The notes under the pieces are model-generated. The model did not search any database. It had not been told where the DNA came from and saw only the letters and a program-made list of their open reading frames with translations. The translations under genes and the position numbers were made by a program. DNA of 64,000 bases, taken from assembly GCF_902459645.1 (NCBI RefSeq), contig NZ_CABPSK010000003.1, forward strand, positions 310,001 through 374,000, in the 5' to 3' direction. This stretch comes from Pandoraea pneumonica. Its GTDB lineage: Bacteria; Pseudomonadota; Gammaproteobacteria; Burkholderiales; Burkholderiaceae. Below are positions 12,973 through 16,002 of the stretch, one piece after another. The stretch's first letter is position 1, and every line of letters starts with the position of its first letter.

Positions 12973-14433
12973 ATGAAAATCATCGAACCCGGCATTCAGA
13001 ACCTGGCCACCGCGCGTGAGTTGCTGCTCACCCCGTATGGCCTCGACGAAACCCATCTGCAACGCGCACTCGGCGACATCTTCACGCACCGCGTGGACTA
13101 TGCCGACCTGTACTTCCAGTACACGCGCAGCGAAGCGTGGAGTCTCGAAGAAGGCATCGTCAAGTCCGGCTCGTTCTCGATCGATCAAGGCGTGGGGGTT
13201 CGCGCCATCGTGGGCGACCGCACGGCCTTTGCCTACTCGGACGACATCTCCGACATCGCGCTCAAGGAAGCCGCCGCCGCCACGCGCAGCATCGCTACCG
13301 CTGGCCGTGGCCGCGTGAAAGTGGGCAGCAAGCTCGCGAACGTCTCTGGCCGCGCGCTTTATCTGCCGTCGGACCCGCTGGCCTCGCTCGACGCGAACGG
13401 CAAGGTCGCGCTGCTCGAGCGCATCGAAAAACTCGCTCGCGCCCGCGATCCGCGTGTGTCGCAGGTGATGGCCGGTCTGGCCGGTGAATACGATGTGGTG
13501 CTCGTGGCCCGCAGCGACGGCGTGATCGCCGCCGACGTGCGCCCGCTGGTGCGCGTCTCGGTCACGGTGATCGTCGAGTCGAACGGCAAACGCGAAATCG
13601 GCAACAGCGGTGGCGGTGCCCGTCTCGACTACGGCTACTTCACCGACGATCTGCTCGAAAAGTACGTCAAGGAAGCTGTCGACGGCGCCATCATCAAGCT
13701 CGACGCCCGCCCGGCCCCGGCCGGTGCGATGACTGTGGTGCTTGGACCGGGCTGGCCGGGTGTGCTGCTGCACGAAGCGATCGGCCACGGCCTGGAAGGC
13801 GACTTCAACCGCAAGGGCTCGTCGGCGTTCTCTGGACGTCTGGGCGAGCGTGTTGCCGCCAAGGGCGTGACCGTGGTCGACGACGGTACGCTGTCGAACC
13901 GCCGCGGCTCGCTCAATATCGACGACGAAGGCAACCCCACGCAGTGCACGACGCTCATCGAAGACGGCATTCTGAAGGGCTATATGCAAGACAGCCTGAA
14001 CGCCCGCCTGATGAAGATGCCGGTGACCGGCAACGGCCGCCGCGAGTCGTACGCCGCGCTGCCGATGCCGCGCATGACGAATACCTACATGCTTGGCGGC
14101 GACAAAGACCCCGAAGAAATCATCGCCTCGGTCAAGCACGGCCTGTACGCGGTGAACTTCGGCGGCGGTCAGGTCGACATCACCAACGGCAAGTTCGTGT
14201 TCTCGATGTCCGAGGCTTACATGATCGAAGACGGCAAGATCACGTACCCGGTCAAGGGCGCGACGCTGATCGGTAACGGTCCGGAATCGCTCAAGGACGT
14301 GACCATGATCGGTAACGACATGGCGCTCGACTCGGGCGTGGGCGTGTGCGGCAAGGAAGGCCAAAGCGTGCCGGTCGGCGTGGGCCAGCCGACGCTGCGC
14401 ATGGAAAACATGACCGTGGGTGGTACGGCGTAA
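12973..14433 (+). CDS. tldD: Metalloprotease TldD
   Basis: This is the TldD subunit (486 residues) of the TldD/TldE zinc protease, which in E. coli degrades unfolded peptides and matures microcin B17. The zinc motif HEAIGH is at residues 267-272 inside [13 protein letters not shown], as expected for the active subunit. The N- and C-terminal regions ([35 protein letters not shown]) are typical. The partner TldE/PmbA is not in this window. The gene is followed by an intrinsic terminator. Confidence 0.95.
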
Positions 14434-14541: not shown

Positions 14542-14567
14542 GCGCCCGGGTCAAACCGGGTGTTTTT
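14542..14567 (+). terminator. Rho-independent terminator after tldD
   Basis: A GC stem (CGCCCGG / CCGGGTG, one G-T pair) with a 6-nt loop is followed by TTTTT. It lies about 110 bases after tldD and upstream of the aroG promoter, so it insulates the two units. A second small hairpin (CCGCGC / GCGCGG, 14628-14645) follows. Confidence 0.7.
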
Positions 14568-14663
14568 GCATGATTTCGAAATATCAGGAATTTTCGACGC
14601 ATTTCACACCAATGAAATGCAATATTTCCGCGCGTTTTTGCGCGGTTTAGCGCAGAGTCACGG

Positions 14664-14692
14664 TTGCAGCGTCATCCGATTCGGCGTATAAA
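14664..14692 (+). promoter_or_regulatory. Sigma-70 promoter of the aroG leader
   Basis: TTGCAG (14664-14669) and TATAAA (14687-14692) are separated by exactly 17 bases. Transcription would start near 14699, about 45 bases before the leader peptide start codon. Confidence 0.65.
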
Positions 14693-14742
14693 GTTGTTTC
14701 TGTGCACGGCGAAAGCCTGCGATGCAACGACAGACACCCTTC

Positions 14743-14823
14743 ATGACCGCCAATAAGTTTTACTTTTACTTTTTTGCGAATCTCACACCGCTGGCGGAAG
14801 GAGAGGGGCAGTTGCAGCAGTAA
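14743..14823 (+). CDS. Phe/Tyr-rich leader peptide of the aroG attenuator
   Basis: This is a 26-codon open frame, ATG at 14743 and TAA at 14821-14823. Residues 6-11 are FYFYFF, i.e. four Phe and two Tyr codons in a row (14758-14775). Such runs are the hallmark of ribosome-mediated attenuation leaders that sense charged tRNA. The peptide lies between a good promoter and an intrinsic terminator, and it overlaps RNA segments able to form alternative hairpins. Its ribosome binding site is weak (no clear purine tract before ATG), which is the main reservation. It is predicted to have no function beyond being translated. Confidence 0.8.
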   Translation: MTANKFYFYFFANLTPLAEGEGQLQQ

Positions 14824-14875
14824 GCACCGAAACGAATCCTGAAAAACCGCCAGCGAGTCTGGCGGTTTTTTTTTT
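14747..14875 (+). promoter_or_regulatory. Four-segment transcription attenuator upstream of aroG
   Basis: Segment 1 is CCGCCA (14747-14752, leader codons 2-4). Segment 2 is CGCTGGCGG (14789-14797). Segment 3 is CCGCCAGCG (14847-14855). Segment 4 is CTGGCGG (14859-14865). Segments 1:2 can pair (6 bp), 2:3 can pair (9 bp, antiterminator), and 3:4 form the terminator, extended by an A-tract/T-tract (12 bp) and followed by ten T residues ending at 14875. A ribosome stalled at the Phe/Tyr codons (14758-14775) would cover segment 1, free segment 2 to pair with 3, and allow read-through into aroG. With plentiful charged tRNA the terminator would form. Confidence 0.82.
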
Positions 14876-14928
14876 GACCCGCATTCCCGAGAAACGAACC
14901 GCAGTCCGAACTGCCCAGGAGAAAAACC

Positions 14929-16002
14929 ATGCCTCCCCACAACACCGATGACGTCCGTATTCGTGAGCTCAAGGAACTGACGCCCCCGGCGCACCTGATT
15001 CGCGAATACCCCTGCTCGGAGAAGAGCGCGGACCTCATCCACCGCTCGCGCGGCGCCATCCACCGCGTGTTGCACGGCATGGAAGACCGTCTCGTCGTCA
15101 TCATCGGCCCGTGCTCGATCCACGATCCGAAAGCGGCCATGGAATACGCCGCACGTCTGGTCGAACAGCGTGAACGCCTCAAGGGCGAGCTCGAAATCGT
15201 GATGCGCGTGTACTTCGAAAAGCCGCGCACGACGGTGGGCTGGAAGGGTCTGATCAACGACCCGCACATGGACAACAGCTTCAAGATCAACGACGGCCTG
15301 CGCCTTGCGCGCGAGCTGCTCGCCCAAATCAACGAGTTGGGTCTGCCCGCTGGCACCGAATACCTCGACATGATCAGCCCGCAATACATCGCGGATCTGG
15401 TGTCGTGGGGCGCCATCGGTGCGCGTACGACCGAATCGCAGGTGCACCGCGAACTGGCTTCCGGCCTGTCGTGCCCGGTCGGCTTCAAGAACGGCACCGA
15501 CGGCAACGTGAAGATCGCGGTCGACGCCATCAAGGCCGCATCGCAGCCGCACCATTTCCTGTCGGTCACCAAGGGCGGCCACTCGGCGATCGTCTCGACC
15601 GCGGGCAATGAAGACTGCCACCTGATTCTGCGCGGCGGCAAAGCGCCGAACTACGACGCAGCCAGCGTACAGACGGCGTGTGAAGACATCGCCAAGTCGG
15701 GTCTGGCAGCGCGCGTGATGATCGACGCCTCGCACGCCAACAGTCAGAAGAAGCACGAGAACCAGATTCCGGTTTGCGAAGACATCGCACGCCAGATCGC
15801 CGGTGGCGACGACCGCATCATCGGCGTGATGGTCGAATCGCACCTCGTGGCGGGCCGTCAGGACCACGTGCCGGGCAAGCCGCTGACCTACGGTCAGAGC
15901 ATCACCGACGCCTGCATCAACTGGGAAGACAGCCTCGGCGTGCTCGACACGCTCGCCGAAGCCGTGCGTGCCCGCCGTCTGGCACGCGGCTCGGGGAACT
16001 GA
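14929..16002 (+). CDS. aroG: 3-deoxy-7-phosphoheptulonate (DAHP) synthase, class I
   Basis: The enzyme condenses phosphoenolpyruvate and erythrose-4-phosphate in the first step of the shikimate pathway to aromatic amino acids. The 357-residue sequence resembles the E. coli AroG/AroF type throughout: GPCSIHDP at residues 60-67, MRVYFEKPRTTVGWKGLINDPHMD split across the active site, and GARTTESQVHRELASGLSCPVGFKNGTDG. The feedback-inhibitor class (Phe or Tyr) cannot be settled by eye. The upstream leader with Phe and Tyr codons suggests control by one or both. A good AGGAG site precedes the ATG at 14929. Confidence 0.95.
   Translation: MPPHNTDDVRIRELKELTPPAHLIREYPCSEKSADLIHRSRGAIHRVLHGMEDRLVVIIGPCSIHDPKAAMEYAARLVEQRERLKGELEIVMRVYFEKPRTTVGWKGLINDPHMDNSFKINDGLRLARELLAQINELGLPAGTEYLDMISPQYIADLVSWGAIGARTTESQVHRELASGLSCPVGFKNGTDGNVKIAVDAIKAASQPHHFLSVTKGGHSAIVSTAGNEDCHLILRGGKAPNYDAASVQTACEDIAKSGLAARVMIDASHANSQKKHENQIPVCEDIARQIAGGDDRIIGVMVESHLVAGRQDHVPGKPLTYGQSITDACINWEDSLGVLDTLAEAVRARRLARGSGN

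Follow-up and report, generated by a model that had tools for sequence, protein, structure and literature searches.

The Rfam family Phe_leader (RF01859) represents the attenuator of the E. coli pheA type, which responds to Phe only. When the families of Rfam 15 were compared with the aroG leader described here and with a set of 20 loci that included it, none reached its gathering score, and the match to a known aromatic-leader RNA family that the original prediction had suggested looking for was thus not obtained. The aroG leader shares a Phe leader peptide with RF01859 and aligned over the entire model, but with 21.5 bits it stayed below the gathering score of 55.

Among DAHP synthase genes, aroF of C. 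glutamicum is preceded by the aroR leader, which has been described as a transcription attenuator acting under Phe limitation (PMC11802643, crediting Neshat 2014; aroF leader in PMC4046766). Compared by these descriptions only, aroR resembles the present leader in placing a peptide that contains Phe-Tyr-Phe in front of a DAHP synthase gene, and differs in belonging to another phylum and in a run shorter than FYFYFF. The uORFC-13-1 motif before aroF in Acholeplasma was proposed to be an attenuator (PMC8632094); as described there, it likewise consists of a predicted uORF that includes one or more Phe codons, followed by a terminator and the DAHP synthase gene, but it comprises 24 sequences from one genus and environmental DNA and has a predicted ribosome binding site. 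Furthermore, Table 7 of PMC1173090 lists two Vibrio species in which the operon of DAHP synthase and tyrA (aroAI-alpha-Y > tyrA) has a predicted attenuator upstream, and attenuation was once hypothesised for E. coli aroF (cited in PMC8632094). Likened by description and not by sequence, these two proposals also place attenuation at a proteobacterial class I DAHP synthase gene, but they are predictions or a hypothesis and concern other operons. On the account of these sources, attenuation of a DAHP synthase gene, which the original prediction called a different design from that of E. coli, is not new as such, and the aroG leader would add another case. No account of this leader was found in the open full-text literature (subscription papers and the Merino attenuator database lay outside this scope), and term counts in the main text of a Burkholderia TSS paper (PMC4603805) gave neither aroG nor attenuation.

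The leader lies in a stretch of 64,000 nucleotides from Pandoraea pneumonica, hereafter the window, between tldD (12973-14433, assigned by Pfam) and aroG. The features of the locus are as follows.

14544..14570, forward strand: terminator-like hairpin 3' of tldD (sequence and fold, -12.1 kcal/mol).
14664..14669, forward strand: -35-like element TTGCAG (sequence; by eye, TTGCCA at the matching site in Burkholderia and many Oxalobacteraceae relatives).
14687..14692, forward strand: -10 element TATAAA after a spacer of 17 nt (sequence; TATAAA or TATAGT in relatives).
14743..14823, forward strand: leader peptide frame, MTANKFYFYFFANLTPLAEGEGQLQQ and stop, without Shine-Dalgarno sequence (sequence, relatives).
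14747..14751, forward strand: core of segment 1, CCGCC, weak and pairable with 14793-14797 (folding).
14758..14775, forward strand: control codons FYFYFF, with all four Phe encoded by TTT (sequence).
14789..14797, forward strand: segment 2, CGCTGGCGG, 5' arm of the antiterminator (sequence, covariation).
14841..14853, forward strand: segment 3 as the 5' arm of the terminator (sequence, covariation).
14847..14855, forward strand: segment 3 as used in 2:3, CCGCCAGCG (9-nt complementarity to segment 2; covariation).
14859..14875, forward strand: segment 4 (14859-14871) and T run (14866-14875) (sequence, covariation).
14917..14921, forward strand: Shine-Dalgarno sequence AGGAG of aroG (sequence).
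14929..16002, forward strand: aroG, class I DAHP synthase, with the start codon ATG at 14929 (NCBIfam NF006723, 603 bits against a cut-off of 568; Pfam PF00793, DAHP_synth_1).

A base-by-base check showed that the coordinates given by the original prediction between 14664 and 14928 were all correct. Indeed, the leader frame consists of 26 codons and a stop and contains FYFYFF, and the nine pairs between segments 2 and 3 are present. The claimed terminator with ten T between promoter and aroG was also found; it occupies 14841-14875, with a stem of 13 bp (14841-14853 with 14859-14871) and a loop at 14854-14858. The antiterminator 2:3 and the terminator 3:4 are mutually exclusive. As for the promoter with a 17-nt spacer, its coordinates held, but the -35 element agrees with the TTGACA consensus at only three of six positions and a promoter scanner listed nothing at the leader; transcription is predicted to start near 14699. 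A terminator scanner did not list the leader hairpin either, probably because the stem occupies most of the T run. When the leader was folded as a single sequence, the structure was not significant (z of -1.55, with 14 of 200 shuffles as good). We set aside the idea that this hairpin terminates tldD, since tldD has its own terminator-like hairpin at 14544-14570. In the six frames of the 64-kb window, FYFYFF was the sole stretch of F/Y codons to reach a length of at least six, and 50 first-order Markov copies of the window contained none. An in-frame ATG at 14722 could add seven codons (MQRQTPF, 14722-14742) to the leader, and 21 of the 30 genus loci have an ATG upstream in the leader frame with no intervening stop; in the alignment with relatives, however, the start falls at 14743.

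The locus thus has a run of end-product codons in a short leader frame and an intrinsic terminator between this frame and the gene. We are highly confident that the aroG leader is a ribosome-mediated transcription attenuator, a judgement that concerns the class of mechanism and its target and not the mix of amino acids sensed. RNA polymerase would initiate near 14699. When charged tRNA-Phe, and probably also tRNA-Tyr, is scarce, the leading ribosome would stall on FYFYFF with its front edge just before segment 2, so that 2:3 would pair, no terminator would form, and aroG would be transcribed. When aromatic amino acids are plentiful, the ribosome would reach the stop codon, 3:4 would form, and transcription would end at about 14875. 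The switch probably activates the aromatic pathway during a shortage of aromatic amino acids.

The original prediction held that relatives should keep the leader frame and its Phe/Tyr run, and this was borne out. Among the loci of AroG relatives, 70 of 80 had the leader; 65 were recognised by a script as leader plus terminator, and five more (L004, L030, L068, L072, and L073) by R1, a model built from 56 sequences with the terminator pairs only. A partial terminator match was obtained at L062, which is cut by a contig end, and in nine loci (L057, L059, L061, L066, L067, L071, L076, L079, and L080) the leader was absent by both script and R1; six of the nine are Rhodocyclales relatives by title. 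AroG was present in all 32 genomes of the genus, and all 30 genus loci examined had the leader, with FYFYFF in 29 and SYFYFF in L089. The leader peptide of one genus genome (L142, G018) is identical to that of Candidatus Pandoraea novymonadis (L005). In the window's genome, the aroG leader was the one full-length R1 match below E 1; no paralogous leader was found at full length below this value, one further full-length match had an E of 1.75, and several partial terminator-like matches had lower E values.

In the order, R1 matched 208 of 399 genomes at E<=0.01, many of the matches being confined to the terminator. At least 110 full-length matches lay in other genomes of the order, of which 109 (all but that in G362) were examined; among these listed matches, 104 from 14 families precede AroG. 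The other five comprise three in family f27 before a gene without assignment, one leucine-type leader, and one apparent chance match. A second model, R2, was built from 112 sequences, partly from the same genomes as those searched. R2 matched 108 of 398 genomes of the order at E<=1e-6, one of them (G313) through a leucine-type leader, vs AroG in 302 of 399, the two counts being independent of each other; the leader is therefore widespread but patchy. In one genus of the window's family (g2), AroG was present in eight of eight genomes and an R2 match in none of them.

Beyond the order, a class-wide draw of 370 genomes gave R1 matches in seven, of which four lay outside the order, and all four precede AroG. 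In a phylum-wide draw, R2 matched 75 of 397 genomes at E<=1e-4, the order included; of 14 matches outside the order that were examined, nine in another class and two in the window's class precede AroG, with leaders such as SYFWYFSY and SFWYFYSS. With both models taken together, 15 of the 18 matches examined beyond the order precede AroG. The remaining three, weaker R2 matches (L241, L244, and L243), also have Phe-rich leaders and a terminator, but they precede prephenate dehydratase genes of the pheA type (two) or a Phe-tRNA synthetase gene, pheS (one).

Several of these loci showed further features. In L241, the Phe-rich leader is followed by a frame from position 420 with chorismate mutase, prephenate dehydratase, and DAHP synthase, the last cut at the locus end, which is an apparent three-domain fusion. 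The three f27 loci (L215, L222, and L227) have a leader rich in F, Y, and W (YFYWYRSS), a GGCGG segment, and a terminator before a non-AroG gene of about 200-260 aa, which is perhaps a second target of aromatic attenuation; the gene frame behind the L222 leader had no Pfam match. L223 has a leucine-rich leader (ALLSLLLLS) and a terminator, followed first by a short frame and then by an HMGL-like gene of the leuA type.

Covariation, which the original prediction had proposed to look for in the RNA segments, was found in segments 2, 3, and 4. In an alignment of 112 sequences, the terminator 3:4 had 45 cells changed on both sides against a shuffled mean of 9.0, and the antiterminator 2:3 had 38 against 16.9; none of 500 shuffles reached either value. 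These and all other covariation and duplex controls were shuffles that ignore relatedness. Less decisive were the number of doubly changed pairs, which 22 of 500 shuffles reached for 3:4 and 315 for 2:3, and the number of pair types, which 9 and 86 reached, respectively. When the helices were slid by 1-3 columns, every measure was lower, apart from the number of doubly changed pairs in 2:3, which was again three at +1. A second alignment, A2, agreed with these results (11 against 1.3 for 3:4 and 14 against 5.0 for 2:3). It comprised 56 sequences, chosen from 79 distinct ones by omitting 11 of the 16 genus rows and 12 rows that were odd or nearly duplicate.

The column beside the core links all three segments. 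Across segments 2, 3, and 4 it reads U-A-U in 45 of the 112 sequences, C-G-C in 19, and A-U-A in 3; 45 read otherwise, 17 of those being A-A-U. Both helices were Watson-Crick at this column in 67 of 111 sequences, vs 41.6 on shuffling and a maximum of 55 in 10,000 shuffles. In leaders of the Oxalobacteraceae type, the 2:3 helix extends on the opposite flank as GGCGGU:ACCGCC. Furthermore, native duplexes of segments 2 and 3 were stronger than permuted ones, overall and within two flank types (0 of 2000 permutations each, 79 sequences).

Such a conserved RNA core would also suit a protein- or ligand-operated, riboswitch-like attenuator in which the peptide is secondary. Nothing further speaks for that reading, little is conserved outside the aromatic run and segments 2-4, and no Rfam family reached its gathering score in the window stretch or the 20 loci; we regard it as extremely improbable. 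A released trp leader acts in trans in rhizobia, and by this precedent the terminated aroG leader of about 175 nt might also, or mainly, act in trans as a small RNA. The conservation observed here is explained by a function in cis, and a role in trans is very unlikely in our judgement.

We then return to the attenuator and the spacing of its codons. The leader set contained 192 sequences, of which eight were lost by the thresholds of the script, four for want of a terminator (L172, L183, L211, and L218) and four for want of a leader (L210, L219, L229 with a GTG start, and the frameshifted-looking L004). The 184 kept gave 177 distinct leaders; 176 had enough upstream sequence, segment 2 was placed in 168, and 167 were folded with masks. 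In the 168 leaders, counted back from GGCGG, codons -9 to -6 are Phe, Tyr, or Trp in 86, 93, 93, and 95%, respectively, codon -4 is so in 65%, and codons -3 to -1 in 10% at most. Measured from the first base of its A-site codon, a ribosome usually extends forward by about 12-13 nt. With this footprint and the observed codon spacing, a ribosome on codons -9 to -6 would halt just before segment 2. The core GGCGG itself (14793-14797 in the window) is nearly invariant among relatives, and GGCGG or GGTGG occurs in reading frames 2, 0, and 1 in 138, 19, and 11 of the 168 leaders, respectively; it is found in all three frames and is thus conserved as RNA.

The aromatic codons vary silently (TAC 165, TAT 162). 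The Phe codons of the leaders are TTT in 535 of 708, and six genes of the window have 12 TTT and 83 TTC. If the terminator were constitutive or served a small RNA, with the leader frame incidental, the lack of a significant promoter in the scanner and of a significant structure in the single-sequence fold would be unsurprising, as would a leader without Shine-Dalgarno sequence. Such a reading would not account for codons -9 to -6 staying aromatic despite the silent variation, or for the inclusion of segment 2 in the three-way covariation, and we consider it highly improbable.

Which amino acids the attenuator senses is a separate question. Sensing of Phe only, with the Tyr and Trp codons as passengers, is a tentative possibility from which we lean away: F outnumbers Y in the leaders (38.6 vs 17.8%), but 159 of 168 leaders contain Y in the control window, and W is found there in 11 of 11 leaders of family f22 and 10 of 11 of f48, which is rather regular for passengers. 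Trp codons are an addition to the Phe/Tyr picture of the original prediction; 62 of 168 leaders have them in the control window, and none of these is among the 16 from the window's genus.

The effect of the ribosome was modelled by masked folding of transcripts halted before segment 4, with the ribosome absent, on codon -7, or at the stop codon. In 167 leaders, the mean P(2:3) was 0.46 free, 0.84 stalled, and 0.35 at the stop, and the stalled value exceeded the free one in 157. Together with the codon spacing, these in silico results indicate that a ribosome stalled on the aromatic codons would leave segment 2 free for segment 3. In the 16 genus sequences, the means were 0.91, 0.92, and 0.94, and the window's leader gave 0.99, 0.99, and 1.0, that is, no discrimination.

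The position of the stop codon likely contributes to this difference. It lies 23 nt after GGCGG in the window's genus vs 5-11 nt in 78 of 168 leaders. In relatives with the near stop, a ribosome at the stop would cover segment 2; in the genus, it would stand between segments 2 and 3 and may block their pairing sterically. The late stop and a weak 1:2 helix are the likely causes of 2:3 pairing in all ribosome states of the genus model. Since the genus fold favours 2:3 throughout, termination with plentiful amino acids would need steric or kinetic effects, and by this modelling the termination branch is the least secure step of the mechanism in the genus.

Accordingly, the 'complete' four-segment system of the original prediction is retained for 2:3 and 3:4, but 1:2 is not well supported in the genus, where it folds weakly against 2:3. 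When segment 3 was omitted, segment 2 paired upstream in 74 of 79 folds, often with immediately adjacent sequence and not with segment 1. In four Massilia-type leaders (L035, L040, L044, and L045), ACC-GGC inside the aromatic run matches a downstream GCCGGT, and in L031 ACC-TGC matches GCAGGT; by eye, this is a possible compensatory change in a helix of the 1:2 type.

Initiation of the leader appears to differ among relatives. Shine-Dalgarno sequences were not enriched before leader frames (core 4-mer in 13 of 177, vs 9.7 by shuffling), and one precedes aroG in all 61 loci whose match begins at Met. Outside this 4-mer count, GGA was seen by eye about 10 nt before the leader ATG in several Oxalobacteraceae. 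Among the 176 leaders with enough upstream sequence, hexamers of the form TANNNT lay 6, 7, or 8 nt before the ATG 53 times, vs 8 times over the eleven places from 11 to 21 nt. A box 4-10 nt before the ATG predicts a leaderless transcript. By family, leaders with such a box numbered 9 of 10 (f4), 12 of 12 (f22), 11 of 12 (f48), 4 of 5 (f12), 6 of 9 (f9), and 6 of 10 (f42); none was present in the 16 leaders of the window's genus, the 11 of f7, or the 4 of f1. Judged from these positions, the leader in relatives often looks leaderless, and that of the window is expected to follow a 5' UTR of about 44 nt. A leader peptide without ribosome binding site has a precedent in C. glutamicum ilvBNC, going by a title cited in PMC4046766.

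Finally, the regulatory context of aroG was examined. A single class I DAHP synthase gene, aroG, was found in the window's genome, which gave no match to class II DAHP synthase or to TrpR, the family model of each having matched its control genome. TrpR and TyrR regulons of aromatic genes have been described for gammaproteobacterial lineages (PMC5343134). With a sole class I enzyme, no class II match, and no TrpR match, attenuation may be the main transcriptional control of aroG in this genome. In 5 of 32 genus genomes (G002, G006, G023, G025, and G030), a second class I DAHP synthase with 60-63% identity was observed, one of the five having an in-frame TAG.

We are evenly divided on a broader proposal, namely that the leaders form an unregistered, phylum-wide RNA family in which one leader pools the charging of tRNA-Phe, tRNA-Tyr, and, in many lineages, tRNA-Trp for entry into the shikimate pathway, with leader frames that are leaderless or lack a Shine-Dalgarno sequence, passed on together with class I aroG in two or more classes of the phylum and replacing TrpR/TyrR control. 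For the organism of the window, the leader is a likely regulator of the committed aromatic step in a genome where TrpR was not found. For the relatives, the leaders form a natural series in which the codon mix (Phe and Tyr, or Phe, Tyr, and Trp), the mode of initiation, and the position of the stop vary around a fixed RNA core, and with this series one can ask directly how one switch read by the ribosome integrates several tRNAs and how it operates without a Shine-Dalgarno sequence.
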